7,598 nucleotides of DNA from NCBI GenBank assembly GCA_946482345.1, contig CAMLRJ010000159.1, positions 1 through 7,598 on the forward strand, written 5' to 3'. Position 1 is the first letter of the stretch, and each line of letters starts with the position of its first letter. Shown here piece by piece: positions 1 through 7,598 of the stretch. Source of the stretch: an uncultured Cellvibrio sp. (lineage in GTDB: Bacteria; Pseudomonadota; Gammaproteobacteria; Pseudomonadales; Cellvibrionaceae). The translations under genes and the position numbers were made by a program. The notes beneath the pieces are model-generated. The model was not told the origin of the DNA and searched no databases. It saw nothing but the letters and a program-made list of their open reading frames with translations.

Positions 1-2463
1 ACGACCTTCGATACTGGCCAATGCACGGTTATTTTTAAAATTTAAATTCAGTATGCGTTTGAAACTGGAACCATAAAGCATTCCTTTTTCCAGGAAGGAG
101 TCATAACATTGTTTCTGACTCATAAACTCTGGCAATTCTTTCCTTAATGCATCTATATCAATTTTTTCTGATCCGCTCAAATCCAACGCGTGATAACTCA
201 ATCGACCCGTGCAGTGAATAGTGCCTTTTACGCTGTTATTCAATGTTGAAAAAATCTGGAAATCAACCTGATCATCAACGGGATGTAAACTGATTTTTAC
301 TGTCTGAGGGCCGTCCGATACTTCTATTGGATTACGCCAGACAACATTTTCAATTCTGGTTACTTTATGCGGTATGTTACAAAGATTACCGGAAGATCTT
401 GCCATTTCCAGATAAGCAACACCCGGCAATATTTTGCGCAGGTTGATCATGTGATCTTTTAAATAAAATTCATCGCCGGTAAAGGTTTTTTTGTAGCATT
501 GAACTTCCAGTGTCGATTCATTGACATCTACTAAAGAGAAAGCGGATTCACTATTTTGTGATGTTGAACTGACTGAATCGGACTTTGCTTTTATCCAATA
601 CTTTTCCTTTGCAAAAGGATAAGTCGGCAAACTGATACTTCTGGCACCGGATGCCGATAATATTTTTTTCCAATCTGCGTCTTGGCCAGCAACATACAGT
701 GTCAATAAATTCTGCAAATTTTCCTGATATTCAGCAGGCATTTTACTGGTTGTTGCAATTATTTTTTCCAGCAGCTCATTAACAACCACTCCCTTAATCT
801 CAGATTTTATTTTCGACGGAACCCAGGATTTAAGTTGGTTGACAAGATCCTGATGGCTATTAACCACAAATCCTGTTCGGTATTTAAAATGACAGCGACC
901 ACGCATCAACGTCAAGGATATATCTTTAAGTTTTGCTTCCGGATTGTGCTCGACCCAGGAACATAAATCATAAATTTTTTGACCCAATGCTGTTTCTGTC
1001 TTTGCCGATAATGGAATTAAATAGCATGACGGTTCTACTACATCCTGGTTTATGGAAATTAAGGGCGCCTCTTCCATTACCAAATGCGCATTGGTTCCAC
1101 TGAAACCATAAGAACTGACTGCACTACGGCGCGGTACCGCAGAAGGCTGTTGCCAATCAATCAGCTGGTTATTGATGTAAAAGGGACTGTTTTCATAATC
1201 CAGATGTTCATTAACTGTTTGAAAATTTAAATTGGCAGGAATTTTTTTATGTTTCATTGCCAGCATAGCTTTCAACACACCAGTTACACCTGCTGCTGAA
1301 AGTGTGTGACCAAAATTGGTTTTGGATGATCCCAATGCACAAAAGTGCGCTTGCTCTGTGTAATGGCGAAATGATTTGCTGAGCGCTTCGAATTCTATTG
1401 GGTCACCCAGTTTGGTGCCTGTACCATGCGCTTCCATGTAGCCAATACTGGCAGGTGAAATATTTAATTTTTGATAGGCTTCCAACTGCAATTGCGTTTG
1501 CGCCAATGAACTTGGTGCAGTAATACCATTGGTTTTTCCATCCTGATTGGAAACACCTCCCAAAATCACGCCGTAAATTTGGTCACCATCGGCAATGGCT
1601 TTATCCAATCGTTTCAACAAAATTACCGACATGCCTTCACCGGGAACAAAGCCATTGGCACTGTTATCAAATGCTTTGCTATTGCCATCTTCGCTGAGCA
1701 TTTGCGCCTTGCTCATCATGATGTACAAATTGGGTGTGATGTAGAGATGTACTCCACCGGCCAATGCCAATTCAATATCACCCGCTTGTATCGCTTTAAC
1801 GGCAAGTTCTACAGCGATTAGCGAAGAGGAACAGGCAGTATCAATCGTAATACTCGGCCCTTTCAGATTTAACAGATAGGAAATTCGTGCAGATAAAATT
1901 GATGCTTGTGTTCCCATCAACTCAAACAAATCCAGATCGTGCGGTGTTGCATTGAGAACATTAGTGTAATCACAATTCAGTGAGCCAACATAAACACCGC
2001 ACTTAACTCCAGTTAACCTGGCATCGTTGTAACCGCCGTCTTCAAATGCTTCCCAACAACCTTGCAAAAAGAGCCGTTGTTGCGGATCCATGCGTTCAGC
2101 TTCTTTGCTGGAAATATTGAAAAAATGCGGGTCAAACTCATCAATCGATTCAAAAAAACTACCGTACTGACAGTAAGTCTTGTTAGGCTCATCACGATTT
2201 TCACTAAAGATTTCTGCAAGATCCCAACGCTTGGCGGGTATAGTGCCTATCGAACTCTCACCCTTTGCAAGCTTGTTCCATAAATCAGAAATATTATTTA
2301 CACCACCAGGATAGCGGCAGGCTGCACCTATGACAGCAACAGGGATTTGATTGGAATCCAACGATTGCGCTTTGGATTCTGTATGGTCTTTCAGCTTTTC
2401 TTCGAGTTTTAATATTTTTTTATAAGCAAGCTCAAGACGTTTCTGATCAGAAATTTGTGACAT
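1..2463 (-). CDS. Modular trans-AT type polyketide synthase, N-terminal part (docking helix, KS, linker, start of DH); runs off the left edge
   Basis: Reading the minus strand from ATG 2461-2463 gives 821 codons without a stop up to the window edge, so the gene is 3'-truncated here. Residues 5-30 form a charged, probably helical leader (LELAYKKILKLEEKLK) like PKS docking segments. Residues 40-465 are a ketosynthase: the DTACSSS motif gives nucleophile C211, EAHGTGT gives H345 and KTNFGH gives K381/H386, so it should condense. The NEHLDYENSPFYIN stretch near 418-431 is typical of trans-AT ketosynthases. Residues 480-625 are a post-KS linker ending in LPTYPFAKEKYW. No acyltransferase (no GHSxG) lies between KS and the next domain, so malonyl units must come from a separate AT. 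From about residue 655 a dehydratase hot-dog fold begins, with catalytic H671 in HMINLRKILPG and the YGSSF element at 797-801. The canonical DH glycine is leucine at 675. The second DH catalytic residue and all later domains lie outside the window. The enzyme is expected to be cytoplasmic. The product is unknown. Confidence 0.95.
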   Translation of the reverse strand, partial: MSQISDQKRLELAYKKILKLEEKLKDHTESKAQSLDSNQIPVAVIGAACRYPGGVNNISDLWNKLAKGESSIGTIPAKRWDLAEIFSENRDEPNKTYCQYGSFFESIDEFDPHFFNISSKEAERMDPQQRLFLQGCWEAFEDGGYNDARLTGVKCGVYVGSLNCDYTNVLNATPHDLDLFELMGTQASILSARISYLLNLKGPSITIDTACSSSLIAVELAVKAIQAGDIELALAGGVHLYITPNLYIMMSKAQMLSEDGNSKAFDNSANGFVPGEGMSVILLKRLDKAIADGDQIYGVILGGVSNQDGKTNGITAPSSLAQTQLQLEAYQKLNISPASIGYMEAHGTGTKLGDPIEFEALSKSFRHYTEQAHFCALGSSKTNFGHTLSAAGVTGVLKAMLAMKHKKIPANLNFQTVNEHLDYENSPFYINNQLIDWQQPSAVPRRSAVSSYGFSGTNAHLVMEEAPLISINQDVVEPSCYLIPLSAKTETALGQKIYDLCSWVEHNPEAKLKDISLTLMRGRCHFKYRTGFVVNSHQDLVNQLKSWVPSKIKSEIKGVVVNELLEKIIATTSKMPAEYQENLQNLLTLYVAGQDADWKKILSASGARSISLPTYPFAKEKYWIKAKSDSVSSTSQNSESAFSLVDVNESTLEVQCYKKTFTGDEFYLKDHMINLRKILPGVAYLEMARSSGNLCNIPHKVTRIENVVWRNPIEVSDGPQTVKISLHPVDDQVDFQIFSTLNNSVKGTIHCTGRLSYHALDLSGSEKIDIDALRKELPEFMSQKQCYDSFLEKGMLYGSSFKRILNLNFKNNRALASIEGR

Positions 2464-2471
2464 AACATTAA

Positions 2472-2477
2472 TCCTTT
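2472..2477 (-). promoter_or_regulatory. Ribosome binding site of the PKS gene
   Basis: On the minus strand AAAGGA lies 8 bases before ATG 2461-2463, a good Shine-Dalgarno match at normal spacing. It supports this ATG as the true start. The start also fits the protein, because the docking-like helix begins a few residues downstream and the ketosynthase follows at about residue 40. Confidence 0.75.
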
Positions 2478-2568
2478 GAAGCAAAAATTTAAAAATCCCG
2501 TTTATTTAAAAACGAATTAAAACCGGATAAGCACCGTATGCTGGACTTGACGAGAAGAAGATGCAGGA

Positions 2569-2581
2569 CGTATTAAATACG
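2569..2581. repeat. Short perfect palindrome CGTATT-A-AATACG in the PKS leader
   Basis: Two perfect 6-base arms surround a single central A, about 106 bases upstream of the PKS start codon. The symmetry would suit a dimeric regulator, but 12 matched bases in AT-rich DNA can arise by chance. Its role as an operator is inference only. Confidence 0.3.
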
Positions 2582-2740
2582 ATAGAAATGACAAAATTAT
2601 TTCATTTCCTTTGTGTTCCGATATCCTTGAAAACCGGAATTCACCCACACCTCCCTGCTTGTTGAGCATCAAGATGTCACCAAAAATTCTATGGGCACCT
2701 CAATTAATCAAATCCTTAACAACAAATAAATTCACCGTTT

Positions 2741-2758
2741 TTTGATACTAAAATCAAA
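2741..2758. repeat. Inverted repeat TTTGAT-N6-ATCAAA upstream of the PKS
   Basis: Six-base arms match perfectly around a 6-base spacer. It lies about 280 bases upstream of the PKS start, in the most AT-rich part of the gap, where regulator binding would be plausible. On the plus strand the right arm runs into T-rich sequence, but the stem is all A/T except one pair and would be too weak for a terminator. Confidence 0.25.
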
Positions 2759-2788
2759 TTTTTAATTTTGCAACTATTTTTTTATTAC

Positions 2789-2810
2789 CAAAATTAAGGC
2801 GCCAATTTTG
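2789..2810. repeat. Inverted repeat CAAAATT-N8-AATTTTG enclosing GGCGCC
   Basis: Seven-base arms match perfectly. The 8-base spacer contains the GC-only palindrome GGCGCC at 2798-2803, a GC-rich island in otherwise AT-rich DNA, about 330 bases upstream of the PKS start. The arrangement could be an operator for the PKS gene. No regulator gene is visible in the window to pair with it. Confidence 0.3.
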
Positions 2811-2920
2811 TCGTTATTTTCATTAACTATAAAAAAAATGCTCTTGGATGATGTGAATATTTCACTGAATGCATAATAGAAAATAGATAGCCACTGAAAA
2901 ATTTCAATGAAATCAAAAAC

Positions 2921-2950
2921 TGGATCCCTGCCTTCGCAGGAATGACGGAG
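2921..2950. repeat. REP-like extragenic hairpin element
   Basis: The unit reads TGGATCCCTGCCTTCGCAGG followed by AATGACGGAG. It has a 5-base stem CCTGC/GCAGG with a CTTC loop (2927-2940) and flanks that resemble the widespread proteobacterial intergenic repeat with core TGGATTCCCGCCTTCGCGGG and AATGACG tail. Compared with that core, both arms differ by a C/G to T/A change that preserves pairing, which suggests the hairpin is maintained. Such elements are commonly dispersed in many copies between genes. Copy number in this genome cannot be judged from one window. Confidence 0.6.
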
Positions 2951-3086
2951 TGAAAATAAACATAAATGGATTCATGCAAAAGTCTATAAGAAAATACACC
3001 ATAGCAATTTTTTAAAGTTTTTTGACTAATCTAATTTATCTAATTTTCTTTATTGAAAAAGTCTTAACTGATGTGGCGAATAACAT

Positions 3087-3120
3087 AAAAAAGGCCATTT
3101 TATTTTAATAAAATGGCCTT
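3087..3120 (-). terminator. Intrinsic terminator of the GH53 galactanase gene
   Basis: A perfect 14-base stem (3091-3104 with 3107-3120; arms begin with AAGGCCATTT) closes over a very short loop. On the minus strand it is followed by a run of six T at 3087-3092, two of them within the stem. It begins 33 bases past the galactanase stop codon. The plus strand lacks a U-tract after the stem, so termination is expected only for leftward transcription. It should insulate the PKS gene from galactanase transcription. Confidence 0.9.
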
Positions 3121-3153
3121 CAAGCAAGGAGTTGTTGTCAAACTATAAAAACA

Positions 3154-4158
3154 CTATTTAAATGCATCCCATACAGCTGTTGCTTTACCATTGTTATCCA
3201 TTGCACCCAATGTATAACCTTTCCAACCCGGTCTGGCTTGTGGTTCCCAATAAAAAATACCTGTACCTTTTCCACCTGAAACTGATTTCAGTTTAGTGAT
3301 CATGTCAGCCACAATTGTTTTAGCGGATGCGTGATCCCAAGGCACGCCTATCTCGGTAATCATCACCTCTTTACCGTAACGACTTACCATATCGTTTAAA
3401 TTCCACAAGCATTGTGAATTCACAGTTTGCCAGGATGAACCTGAAACATGCGTTGGATAATTTGAAAAACCCAACACATCAAATTTGGCACCATTGGCAA
3501 CCAAACCATCAAACAACCAACGAGCATCGGCATTTCTATAACAGTTAGCCACATGCACAATCACTTTTGCACTGGAGAAAACACTTTTGGTCGCGTTGTA
3601 GCCAGTGTTAGTCAACCATGCATAATTTTTCATGTTGACCGATGCCATACCATCATTCCACAACATACCATTACTGGTTTCATTACCTACCTGAACCCAT
3701 TTAGGTGTAACACCTGCATCTTTCAAAGCTTGTAATGTATAAACAGTTGAGTTCCAGACAGCGTCCATCAATTGGTTGAAACTGTAATTTCTCCAGGCTG
3801 CAGGTTTGGTTTGTTGTCCTGGATCAGCCCAGGAATCGCTGTAATGGAAATCCACCATTACACTCAACCCGGCAGCTTTCGCACGTTTCGCTTTGGCGAC
3901 AACATCCTGGGTACTGTTGTACCAACCATCCGCAGGATTCACCCAAACACGCAAGCGTACAGCTGACATACCCTGTTCTTTCATGATGGCAAATATGTCT
4001 TTTTTGACGCCGCTGCGGTTGTAATAAGCCAAACCATTAGCCTCAATTTCAGACGTCCAACTGACATCCGCACCTTTCACCTGGGCAAAGGTGCCCGAGG
4101 AGGAAAGTAACAAACCTCCGAGGGCAAGAAGTGGTAATACGATTTTCGAAAGTTTCAT
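3154..4158 (-). CDS. Secreted arabinogalactan endo-beta-1,4-galactanase, glycoside hydrolase family 53
   Basis: This 334-residue enzyme is predicted to hydrolyse internal beta-1,4-galactosidic bonds of galactan side chains in pectin, using a retaining mechanism on a (beta/alpha)8 barrel. Residues 1-25 are a Sec signal peptide (MKLSK, hydrophobic core, likely cleavage after GTFA), so it is exported to periplasm or medium. The mature protein is a single catalytic domain without a carbohydrate-binding module or lipobox. GH53 landmarks are VRLRVWVNP (67-75), DFHYSDSWADPG (103-114), VQVGNE with acid/base E160, FDVLGFSNYP (226-235), and ITEIG with nucleophile E269. These glutamates sit one residue from E161 and E270 reported for galactanase A of Pseudomonas fluorescens subsp. 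cellulosa (Cellvibrio japonicus). The chosen start is ATG 4156-4158. A GTG three codons upstream (4165-4167) lies inside the Shine-Dalgarno sequence and is unlikely to be used. The gene has its own promoter and terminator. It could be named gal53A by analogy, which is not proven. Confidence 0.95.
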   Translation of the reverse strand: MKLSKIVLPLLALGGLLLSSSGTFAQVKGADVSWTSEIEANGLAYYNRSGVKKDIFAIMKEQGMSAVRLRVWVNPADGWYNSTQDVVAKAKRAKAAGLSVMVDFHYSDSWADPGQQTKPAAWRNYSFNQLMDAVWNSTVYTLQALKDAGVTPKWVQVGNETSNGMLWNDGMASVNMKNYAWLTNTGYNATKSVFSSAKVIVHVANCYRNADARWLFDGLVANGAKFDVLGFSNYPTHVSGSSWQTVNSQCLWNLNDMVSRYGKEVMITEIGVPWDHASAKTIVADMITKLKSVSGGKGTGIFYWEPQARPGWKGYTLGAMDNNGKATAVWDAFK

Positions 4159-4164
4159 GTTTAT

Positions 4165-4170
4165 CACCTT
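4165..4170 (-). promoter_or_regulatory. Ribosome binding site that fixes the galactanase start
   Basis: AAGGTG on the minus strand stands 6 bases before ATG 4156-4158. The in-frame GTG that would lengthen the protein by three residues is the last three bases of this same motif, so it cannot serve as a start with its own upstream site. The ATG start also gives a standard signal peptide beginning MKLSK. Confidence 0.8.
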
Positions 4171-4442: not shown

Positions 4443-5900
4443 CTAATCAGTAGCCAGTTGTTCCAGGAAGTCTGCCAGGAAAGCTGATTGGGTTGCATCG
4501 GCCAAACGCACCAGTGAATCTTCCCGTTGAGCCGCTATATCGAACGAGTGACTGTCAGACAATCCAGCCCATTTCAGCAAAGTGTTTAACCCATCAGGAT
4601 GATCAAAAATTCCATGAAGATAAGTCCCCAGAATCAAGTCATCTTCGCTTATGGCGCCCTCGGGAATGAGTTGATCATCAATCGTTACATAAGTTGCTGG
4701 ACGTTTGAGTGCGTCACCATGACTGATACCCGTATGAATTTCATAAGCCTGAATAGCACTTTGTTTATCCCATAAAAATCCACAACGTTGTTGCAATATT
4801 TTTTCGGGTAGAAGCGTTGTTTGCAATGAAAAATATCCCAGCCCGGCAGAAGAGCCCGGCGAAGATTCCAGCCCTGATTCATCATGAATAAACTTACCCA
4901 ACATTTGAAATCCACCACAAATCCCTATTAATTTTCCGCCATAACGCAGATGTTTTTGTATTCCACTGTCCCAGAATTGAGCGCGCAAAAATGCCAAATC
5001 TTCACGCGTATTTTTACTACCGGGAATAATTAATAAATCACAGGCAGGAATTGGTTGATTGGGGCCTACCCATTGAAAATGAATTTGTGGATGCAAACGC
5101 AACGAATCAAAATCGGTGTGATTGGAAATACGCGGCAAAGCTAAAACGGCAACGCGAAAAGTTGCTGTTGTTTTTTGATTATTGGTTGTTAATGCATCTT
5201 CCGCGTCAAGATACAAACCTTGCAAATAAGGAATTACAGCTAACACCGGCTTACCGGTTTTATGTTCCAGCCAATCCAATCCTGACTGCAACAAACTCAT
5301 ATCGCCACGAAAACGATTAATCACAAATCCCACTATGCGATTGCGTTCGGATTCACTCAATAATTCCAAAGTGCCTACCAGATGTGCAAACACACCACCA
5401 CGATCAATATCAGCAATTAATATCACAGGACAATCGACGGTTTCTGCAAACCCCATATTGGCAATATCGCGATCCCGCAAATTAATTTCCGCAGGGCTGC
5501 CAGCACCTTCAACCAAAATGACATCGAATTGTGTTTGCAATCGATGATATGAATCCAGAACGTAACTCATCGCTTGCGTTTTGTAATCGTGATAAACCGC
5601 CGCATCCATGTCGGTAATTGCACGGCCCTGAACAATAATTTGCGCGCGCGTGTCGCTGGTTGGTTTAATTAAAATGGGATTCATATCCGTGTGTGGCAAT
5701 AAACCCGCCGCATAAGCTTGCAATGCTTGCGCTCGACCTATCTCGCCACCATCCACTGTCACCGCCGAATTTAATGCCATATTTTGTGGTTTAAACGGCA
5801 CTACCGATACGCCACGATTTTTTAAAATCCTGCATAAAGCGGCAACCAATGTTGATTTGCCTGCATCAGATGTGGTGCCCTGAATCATAAGAATTTTCAT
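4443..5900 (-). CDS. cobQ: Cobyric acid synthase, glutamine-hydrolysing
   Basis: CobQ/CbiP amidates the b, d, e and g side chains of adenosylcobyrinic acid a,c-diamide to give adenosylcobyric acid, using glutamine and ATP, in the cytoplasmic late pathway to adenosylcobalamin. From ATG 5898-5900 the protein has 485 residues, the usual family length. Residues 1-235 are the ATP-dependent synthetase domain, opening with [17 protein letters not shown] (P-loop at 8-16) and containing PQNMALNS (38-45) and [12 protein letters not shown] (130-141). Residues 250-485 are a class I triad glutamine amidotransferase domain: CGGFQMLG carries nucleophile C328, YEIHTG is at 386-391, and GTYLHGIFD carries H429. 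All key residues are present. An in-frame GTG at 5928-5930 would add ten residues, but the family normally begins a few residues before QGTTSD, so the ATG is preferred. It lacks a clear Shine-Dalgarno sequence, which suggests coupling to the permease gene 39 bases upstream. No other cobalamin gene is visible. Confidence 0.96.
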
Positions 5901-5939
5901 GAAAACGCTAAACCCTGGATAAACTTTCACGGCTGCGCA

Positions 5940-7598
5940 TCATACACCTCTTAATAGTTCGCTTACATGTCGCTGAACAATTACCTGTGTGGACCAATAA
6001 ATCGGAAAGGCTGCAATTATCAGAATCAATATAAAAGGCAATAACCAAGCTGTAGCACTCAAGTGAAAATAAATACCATTGGTTTGCAACCACCACCAAA
6101 AACCAATCAATAAAAAACCAGCAACGGCCAACCCTGATATCAAGGGAATAAGCTGATCTTTAAATACCTGCGCAAAAATTGTTACAGGCTTGGCACCTAT
6201 TGCCATACGCACCGCTAATTCAAACCGCCGTGATTGCACGCCGTAATTGACTATGCCGTAAATACCAATAGCTGCCAGTAGCAATACAAGAATCGATAAA
6301 CCAGCAGTTAAACCTGTAATAGTTTTTTGTGCATTTGTGCATTTTGATATCGCTTCCTCTGTAGTTTCAAAATAAAAGGCTTTCATTTCCGGATTTACTT
6401 TTGCTGCGTGTCGATTAACATCGACCGCAGTTAGTGACTGCCCTGGTTTTACGCGAATTAACACTTCGATATCATCTTGTATATTGGATCGAAACGCGCG
6501 AGCGGGCTCTATTGCCATTTTTTGCCCCGCAGGAATTTGCAGGTCACGCACTACTCCCACTATTTCATAAGCACGCGAATCACCATCAAGGTAAATAATT
6601 TTTCCTATCACTTCCTTTTTTACATCAATCAATTTCGCAAAGGTTTCGTTGATTACCAGCTTGTTACCACCTGCCCGCTCTTCAGCATCCGTAAAATAAC
6701 GACCAGCAAGAAGAGGGATTTCCAACATGTTTAAATAGCTACCGTTAGACCAGGTATCACCAGCGAGTATTTTATTATCGGCACCCGGTTGCAAAACCCA
6801 ATTTCGACATGCGTTTCGATAAGGCAATGGAGAACCTGCAGAAAGCCCAACCATTTCTATTTTTGGATCCTGACGCAATTCTTCTGCAATGGCTTCAAAA
6901 TAGGCTCGACGTTGTTCAAGAGTGGTCTTTGACCAAAAGGTGGCGATACTTAACCGGGTTTGGTAATGATCGTGTGTGCGATAACCCAGATCCTGAGTTA
7001 ATTGTTGTGCACCCTGTATAAATAAATGCAGGCTGGCGGTTAATAAAATTCCGGTTAAGGCAATTTGAATAAATATCAACAAATGCCTTACTGATGTAGA
7101 AATTTGCAAACCCACGCCTTTACCACTGGTTTGTAATAAACCATTTAATCGTCTCATATCAATTTGCCGACTCACCAACCATGCAAATATTACGGCGAGA
7201 ATCAATGAAACCAGCGCAGCAAATAAAACTGTTAGTAAATTGATTTGCAACTCATGCAAACGCGGAAACAAACCATCAGCTGTAACAACAATTACTTTCA
7301 ATAAAATTGTGGCAACTACTAGTGATAACAGGGTCGCGCCTGACATCAACCAAATTAATTCTGCCAATACTGAATTAAATAAATGTTGTTTTTGGGCGCC
7401 CAATGCTAACTGTATTGCCATGGTACGCTGTTGTTGGCTGGCTCGTGCAAGTACAAGATTGATAATGTTAGCTGCGGATATCAATAATAAAACCAATACA
7501 CCAGCTAACATCATTAAGCTTTGTTTTGATGAATCGCCTTTGATGGCCTCTGCAAAAGGCACCAGTGAAACTGATAATTCCAAATCAGGATTGTCATT
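5940..7598 (-). CDS. MacB/FtsX-type permease of the duplicated orphan (ADOP-like) family, 5' end outside the window
   Basis: The frame is open to the right edge, giving the last 552 residues; no start codon is supported inside the window. Numbering from the edge, transmembrane segments are seen near 27-52, 82-106 and 118-142 (first FtsX-type block, with NLVLARASQQQRTMAIQLALGA), 170-195 (start of the second half), and 427-451, 483-503 and 515-536 (second FtsX block, with YGVQSRRFELAVRMAIGA). Between 196 and 426 lies a periplasmic MacB_PCD-like domain. Two FtsX blocks around a second periplasmic domain indicate an internally duplicated permease of about 800 residues, like the family named ADOP (acidobacterial duplicated orphan permease). 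Members generally lack an attached ATPase, and their substrates are unknown. MacB relatives act in export or envelope mechanotransmission. The gene ends at TGA 5940-5942, close to cobQ, and the two are probably cotranscribed. A conventional macB partner upstream cannot be excluded. Confidence 0.88.
   Translation of the reverse strand, partial: NDNPDLELSVSLVPFAEAIKGDSSKQSLMMLAGVLVLLLISAANIINLVLARASQQQRTMAIQLALGAQKQHLFNSVLAELIWLMSGATLLSLVVATILLKVIVVTADGLFPRLHELQINLLTVLFAALVSLILAVIFAWLVSRQIDMRRLNGLLQTSGKGVGLQISTSVRHLLIFIQIALTGILLTASLHLFIQGAQQLTQDLGYRTHDHYQTRLSIATFWSKTTLEQRRAYFEAIAEELRQDPKIEMVGLSAGSPLPYRNACRNWVLQPGADNKILAGDTWSNGSYLNMLEIPLLAGRYFTDAEERAGGNKLVINETFAKLIDVKKEVIGKIIYLDGDSRAYEIVGVVRDLQIPAGQKMAIEPARAFRSNIQDDIEVLIRVKPGQSLTAVDVNRHAAKVNPEMKAFYFETTEEAISKCTNAQKTITGLTAGLSILVLLLAAIGIYGIVNYGVQSRRFELAVRMAIGAKPVTIFAQVFKDQLIPLISGLAVAGFLLIGFWWWLQTNGIYFHLSATAWLLPFILILIIAAFPIYWSTQVIVQRHVSELLRGV

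Follow-up and report, generated by a model that had tools for sequence, protein, structure and literature searches.

A gene start in a Cellvibrio-like bacterium very probably encodes the first module of a three-module trans-acyltransferase polyketide synthase subunit

The solved system that comes closest in fold to the gene described here is the BGC11 trans-acyltransferase (trans-AT) bimodule of Brevibacillus brevis (PDB 7zsk, 7zma; K3DAK4), in which a ketosynthase (KS), a flanking subdomain and a dehydratase (DH) lie in one chain devoid of an acyltransferase (AT). This bimodule is reportedly the subject of a paper by Tittes et al. from 2022. In the available parts of two literature sources, the trans-AT pathways found in Cellvibrionaceae are those of shipworm symbionts and that of bryostatin, from a bryozoan symbiont (PMC6235255, PMC7329324). 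The former source describes a trans-AT polyketide synthase (PKS) with beta-branching genes in Teredinibacter and in un-binned shipworm gill bacteria, and reports that cluster content is larger in Cellvibrionaceae associated with hosts than in those that live freely; the latter describes several trans-AT families in shipworm Cellvibrionales. Soil Cellvibrio are counted among the genomes richest in secondary-metabolite clusters in the accessible portion of another report, which links this to competitive exclusion by antibiotics, there a bacteriocin (PMC8545098). In a survey of 1,782 trans-AT clusters by Helfrich et al., the word "Cellvibrio" is absent from the main text as far as it was available (PMC7930024). 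Here we report on a stretch of 7,598 nucleotides from contig CAMLRJ010000159.1 (the whole stretch is called the window), one end of which holds the start of a PKS gene: very probably about the first fifth of a giant polyketide-building enzyme that uses a separate loading enzyme.

The PKS reading frame codes for 821 residues, in which a presumed docking helix, a KS (KS1), a flanking subdomain ending in LPTYPFAKEKYW and a DH (DH1) follow one another, with no AT in between (Table 1). The initial annotation had placed this frame exactly and had called it the first PKS gene at the border, which is true within the window. It had also described a KS followed by a linker ending in LPTYPFAKEKYW and then directly by a DH, and both the Pfam matches and the motif spacing bear this out. 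The KS was matched by PF00109 (2.6e-86) and PF02801 (1.1e-37), the linker and flanking subdomain by PF22621, PF22336 and PF16197, and a Pfam scan of the whole frame found no AT model. The Cys-His-His set of the KS and the His and Pro of the DH are all present. A structure model built from 58 sequences reached a pLDDT (predicted local distance difference test) of 89, and its best fold match was the Brevibacillus brevis bimodule. The model TIGR02813, for PfaA-type polyunsaturated fatty acid synthases, scored 273.6 bits against a cut-off of 1010.1 with this partial protein; PfaA was not among the rows of the trees described below.

The absence of the AT can also be read from distances. Trans-AT PKSs have been proposed to recombine naturally at the LPTYPFx5W motif, which in cis-AT PKSs is said to stand after the AT (available part of PMC11260071); this is the spacing difference that we used to separate AT-less from AT-bearing modules. 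Counts were made on KS domains followed by at least 560 residues, 21 of them from relatives of the window protein, with an AT scored where GHSxG stood at a fixed distance, and some rows counted as AT-less may be cis-AT, cut before the AT or furnished with another motif. An LPTYPFx5W-like motif was present after 293 of the 408 KS domains without a detected AT, lying at 175-224 residues in 238 of these, whereas after KS domains with an AT it was present in 14 of 18 cases and always at 450-524 residues. With a distance of 193 residues, LPTYPFAKEKYW matches the AT-less modules and is unlike the AT-bearing ones. The DH motif DHMINLRKILPG begins 251 residues past the KS, and the corresponding distance was 240-279 residues in 44 of 54 AT-less KS-DH pairs, the window included.

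What lies beyond the edge of the window can be judged from seven full-length metagenomic relatives (P0241-P0247), which are 63-92% identical to the window protein over the shared part and 4,123-4,294 amino acids long. All seven are built as KS-DH-KR-ACP / KS-DH-KR-ACP / KS-DH-ACP(-ACP), followed by a C-terminal tail, where KR stands for ketoreductase and ACP for acyl carrier protein. No AT was found in any of the seven in the Pfam listing, nor in the four scanned with hmmscan, and the GHSxG motif is absent from all seven. Their catalytic residues are kept almost throughout: all 21 KS domains have the cysteine and HGTGT, and 20 have NxGH; all 21 DH domains have the His and Pro, and 20 have DxxxQ; the KR Ser-Tyr-Asn set is kept in 14 of 14. 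The Asp motif of the KR is likewise present in 14 of 14, and we take it to mark the B type. Because all seven share this plan, what the window shows very probably belongs to the first of three modules in a trans-AT subunit. The best explanation of the window, in which we place high confidence, is thus a trimodular trans-AT PKS subunit of a Cellvibrio-like producer, of which the docking helix, KS1 and the greater part of DH1 are covered here. The terminal ACP is single in P0241 and P0242, the relatives closest to the window, and a doublet in the other five, an ACP having apparently been lost or gained within the family. P0241 is not the window frame itself, because an alignment of the two over 821 columns contains 62 mismatches and 2 gaps.

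The relatives also support the start of the frame. An alternative TTG at 2484 would add seven residues, and all seven full-length relatives, as well as P0001 (see below), start at the residue encoded by the ATG. The N-terminal helix is conserved in the seven, with D6, K8, R9, L10, L12, A13, Y14, I17 and L20 invariant. By eye, this helix appears to resemble a single coiled-coil helix, and many AT-less proteins of the set have a two-helix start (docking classes are treated in the available part of PMC9113145).

The gene could instead encode a single-module KS-DH protein of about 960-1,000 amino acids, a split module that would still be of the trans-AT kind. Among relatives at about 40-42% identity there are indeed KS-DH proteins of 960-999 amino acids whose KS lies close to the N-terminus (P0050, P0051, P0062, P0069, P0070, P0094 and P0105), but we consider this improbable, as the seven nearest full-length relatives are all 4,123-4,294 amino acids long and share the docking helix at the start. 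Somewhat less probable again is a decayed or inactivated PKS gene. This idea draws on P0001, a Joint Genome Institute (JGI) contig of 6,404 bp that carries the same gene start and is near-identical to window positions 1159-2463, with 3 substitutions in the first 435 residues. Past residue 435 it continues with about 50 different residues, and over positions 441-481 these correspond to the closing segment of an IS110 transposase model. The junction may reflect an insertion that took place in a different strain, or a chimeric assembly, however, while the window frame is open up to the edge with the tested catalytic residues kept, and P0241-P0247 are full-length.

The type of the KS was examined by phylogeny. 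A FastTree set retained 195 of 205 KS domains, those dropped being near-copies or short, and a larger tree was drawn from the 629 of 667 KS matches that were long enough, of which 590 remained after removal of near-copies. For IQ-TREE and the first approximately unbiased (AU) tests, 53 rows were hand-picked from the 590, and a later run left out three AT-followed rows (P0278 twice and L009). In the FastTree analysis the window KS fell into a set of 93 rows, with a support of 98, that contains none of the 17 AT-followed KS domains. In IQ-TREE the 19 AT-followed rows lay on one side of a branch with a support of 84, and the support was 100 for the 16 remaining without the three odd rows. Forcing the KS family of the window into the AT-followed group cost 26.8-27.6 log units (AU p 0.043 without the odd rows). 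The KS1 family forms a clade of its own with a support of 100 among the 53 rows, and the KS2 and KS3 domains of the relatives group with KS domains that mostly stand downstream of DH-KR-ACP modules, as expected from the plan. The three odd rows have an AT-like motif after the KS, yet lie near trans-AT KS domains, and two of the three have the SPF-type motif discussed next; mixed systems are possible.

The initial annotation had named NEHLDYENSPFYIN as typical of trans-AT KS domains, and this motif proved to be a fair sign. At its position, with 7 of the 590 rows omitted as too short, [ST]PF was found in only 2 of 19 AT-followed KS domains (the odd rows P0278_44 and L009) versus 439 of 542 others outside the family, and [STG]PF[YF] in 2 of 19 versus 317 of 542. 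The SPF-type motif occurs in all eight KS1 sequences, those of the window and the seven relatives. The trans-AT label given at the outset is therefore supported by an AT-less module here, by the lack of any detected AT in the seven relatives and by a KS that the trees place outside the AT-followed group. Put in terms of what defines each class, the window has a module with no integrated AT, the matching KS grouping and a flanking subdomain that ends in LPTYPFx5W, and it lacks the AT between KS and reductive domains that characterizes cis-AT modular PKSs.

Several points weigh against a trimodular trans-AT subunit. The window ends inside DH1, and all that we propose beyond residue 821 is carried over from relatives of 63-92% identity. 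No free-standing AT was seen within the window, the cluster lying beyond its edge. The rejection of an AT-type KS by the AU test is marginal, the p value being 0.091 when the three odd rows are included, and the KS type alone is no proof of AT absence, because those three AT-followed KS domains lie near trans-AT ones. Support is weak for the position of KS1 within the trans-AT KS domains (88, 72 and 59 for the smallest sets that reach beyond its own family), and a position beside KS2, KS3 and the six nearest KS domains from named records was not rejected (AU p 0.0565). Finally, KS1 lies in a clade of 242 rows (support 100) in which 98 of the 123 rows with a preceding module follow a KR-less one, versus 89 of 224 outside it, a count that is drawn from related rows and so is not independent evidence. 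The remaining alternative, a cis-AT PKS with its AT elsewhere in the module or lost from this copy, is very improbable: it is favoured by the marginal AU result and by the single N-terminal helix, by eye closer to those of P0034 and P0107 (whose KS domains group with AT-followed rows in the 195-KS FastTree) than to the two-helix starts of many AT-less proteins, but it is opposed by seven relatives with no AT found, by an AT-less spacing of both the LPTYPF and the DH motif and by top solved matches that are AT-less.

A trimodular trans-AT subunit of this plan would operate as follows. An upstream ACP would dock on the N-terminal helix and hand its acyl chain to Cys211, and a free-standing AT encoded elsewhere would load malonyl onto the ACPs of the subunit. 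In module 1, KS1 would condense, KR1 reduce and DH1 dehydrate, leaving a double bond; module 2 would repeat this chemistry to give a second, successive double bond, and module 3, whose own KR is missing, would add a third unit. Because KS1 stands among KS domains mostly downstream of KR-less modules, its incoming chain may differ from what a DH-KR module usually delivers, although this indication is weak. KS2 and KS3 are predicted to group with KS domains that accept alpha,beta-unsaturated chains. A beta-branched chain was considered for KS1 and dropped: the tryptophan signal of the ACP is absent from the ACP segments of the nearest rows, where support is weak. That signal we take to be a Trp six residues after the Ser.

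DH1 has a peculiarity of its own. The glycine of HxxxGxxxxP is a leucine in the window and in all seven relatives (8/8), while the other 208 parsed DH domains have glycine in 127 cases, another residue in 81 and leucine in none (64 of 280 domains were omitted with the motif unparsed, and 14 of the 208 would be DH2 and DH3 domains of the family if all of those were parsed). The position is variable and the leucine is confined to the family. His671 and Pro680 are present in the window; DxxxQ lies beyond its edge, but it is found in DH1 of all seven relatives. A double-bond-shifting DH is recognized by missing Pro and Gln/His residues of the two motifs (available part of PMC9600693), and this assignment was rejected for DH1, since Pro680 is present and the Gln is found in DH1 of the relatives.

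All four genes of the window are on the minus strand; from the right-hand end leftwards they are a permease gene of ADOP/MacB type (its 3' part), cobQ, a gene for a glycoside hydrolase family 53 (GH53) galactanase and the PKS gene start. The permease gene ends 9 bases before the CobQ start on the same strand. Two proteins share 99% and 90% identity with CobQ, and the closest genus-named ones, which are from Cellvibrio, at most 79%; all ten solved relatives listed for the GH53 protein are galactanases or GH53 enzymes. Since the nearest named CobQ proteins are from Cellvibrio and the GH53 protein matches solved galactanases, the producer is likely a Cellvibrio-like plant-polysaccharide degrader, with its taxonomy read from CobQ; the proposal of such a host in the initial annotation thus gains support. 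The GH53 and PKS genes are separated by 690 bases of low G+C content (0.30-0.37 in three 500-base windows, 2251 to 3250). As a 14-bp hairpin and a T run directly follow GH53 on its 3' side, its transcript probably ends on its own. The intergenic DNA also contains a small palindrome, ATTCCTGCGAAGGCAGGGAT (2924-2943), which resembles neisserial dRS3-type repeats. The 28-base stretch around it had zero exact matches in viral contigs, and an Rfam search at gathering thresholds gave no match.

Table 1. Positions of genes, domains, motifs and signals in the 7,598-nucleotide window
Feature	Position	Strand	Basis or remark
PKS frame, ATG at 2463, 821 aa, no stop, runs past window edge	1..2463	-	
Likely ribosome-binding site AAAGGA, 8 nt upstream of ATG 2463	2472..2477	-	Read in sequence
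N-terminal helix (residues 6-27), presumed docking helix	2383..2448	-	Model helix, low confidence (pLDDT blocks 50-67)
Ketosynthase domain KS1 (residues 42-418)	1210..2340	-	Profile limits, Pfam, fold
KS active-site Cys211 (DTACSSS), invariant	1831..1833	-	
KS catalytic His346 (EAHGTGT)	1426..1428	-	
KS catalytic His386 (NFGH)	1306..1308	-	
NEHLDYENSPFYIN (residues 418-431), motif flagged in the initial annotation	1171..1212	-	
KS flanking subdomain / KS-AT linker relic (PF22621, residues 481-544)	832..1023	-	
LPTYPFAKEKYW (LPTYPFx5W, residues 612-623)	595..630	-	193 residues past KS end
Dehydratase DH1, first half (PF21089, residues 646-739)	247..528	-	E 3.3e-19
DH1 motif HMINLRKILPG (residues 671-681): catalytic His671, Leu675 replacing the usual Gly, Pro680	421..453	-	
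DH1, start of second half (PF14765, residues 771-818), cut by window edge	10..153	-	E 0.00033, below cut-off, partial domain
Terminator-like hairpin after GH53, 14-bp perfect stem, T run; separates GH53 from PKS gene	3090..3121	-	
GH53 endo-beta-1,4-galactanase, signal-peptide-like N-terminus (by eye)	3154..4167	-	PF07745 1.7e-89, PDB relatives
Cobyric acid synthase CobQ, taxonomic marker	4443..5930	-	NF001989 638 bits, cut-off 273
ADOP/MacB-type permease, 5' end beyond window	5940..7598	-	TIGR03434 3.2e-85, 286.8 bits vs cut-off 622.3, partial protein

A pattern scan covering 84,980 species, with a single genome per species, returned 8 loci that were only 41-43% identical, and no close relative. 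Among the six 8-residue patterns used, DEFDPHFF occurs in two of the seven relatives, IMMSKAQM in four, EFMSQKQC in three and the other three in none. At least one pattern is present in five relatives, and the scan could have missed members of the family, because P0246 and P0247 carry none. Viral contigs queried with P0244 gave no relative, and no plasmid record was at least 60% identical to the window protein. Since several metagenomes contain this conserved family, at 63-92% identity, and the scan of 84,980 species gave nothing close to it, its pathway would seem, on these sequence comparisons, not yet to have been sampled in genomes. The literature on trans-AT PKSs and Cellvibrio, in the parts available, does not describe the family, which does not prove it unpublished.

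The enzyme type is textbook, and the window gene is a sound further member of a well-known kind, of modest interest in itself. Within our set, the traits found in the family only are the KS1 clade with its support of 100 and the leucine for glycine in DH1 (8/8 versus 0/208). It is tempting to speculate, although we regard this as rather doubtful, that the eight sequences belong to a single trans-AT pathway, conserved and so far undescribed, of uncultured Cellvibrio-like bacteria that live freely and degrade plant polysaccharides, with a polyene-type product. If this were true, such a compound could keep competitors off the sugars that these bacteria release. Antibiotics and cytotoxins are known to come from trans-AT pathways. 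Long contigs carry three of the relatives: P0244 (116,804 bp), P0243 (79,440 bp) and P0242 (46,347 bp).

Compared with known systems, the window protein stands at some distance from each. The Brevibacillus brevis bimodule aligned over residues 41-816 with 35-37% identity in the fold alignments; it comes from another organism, and its cluster is called "orphan" in the PDB titles. The KS of bacillaene synthase PksL, module 6 (PDB 5e5n, 5erf and 5eny), is 43-48% identical, and KS1 lies in its own clade. AT-less KS domains of pTML1 (L011) and of a Bacillus velezensis cluster (L012) are found on the same side of the tree as the window KS, with 37.5 and 37.4% identity, respectively, over 94% of the window protein. 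The product of the pTML1 cluster is presumably thiomarinol, and the Bacillus velezensis cluster we take to be that of macrolactin. The trans-AT clusters of shipworm Cellvibrionaceae, which we liken to this locus by description, belong to cellulose-degrading bacteria and differ in being host-associated (available parts of PMC6235255 and PMC7329324). P0241-P0247, by their start and by their three-module plan, represent the same gene as that of the window.
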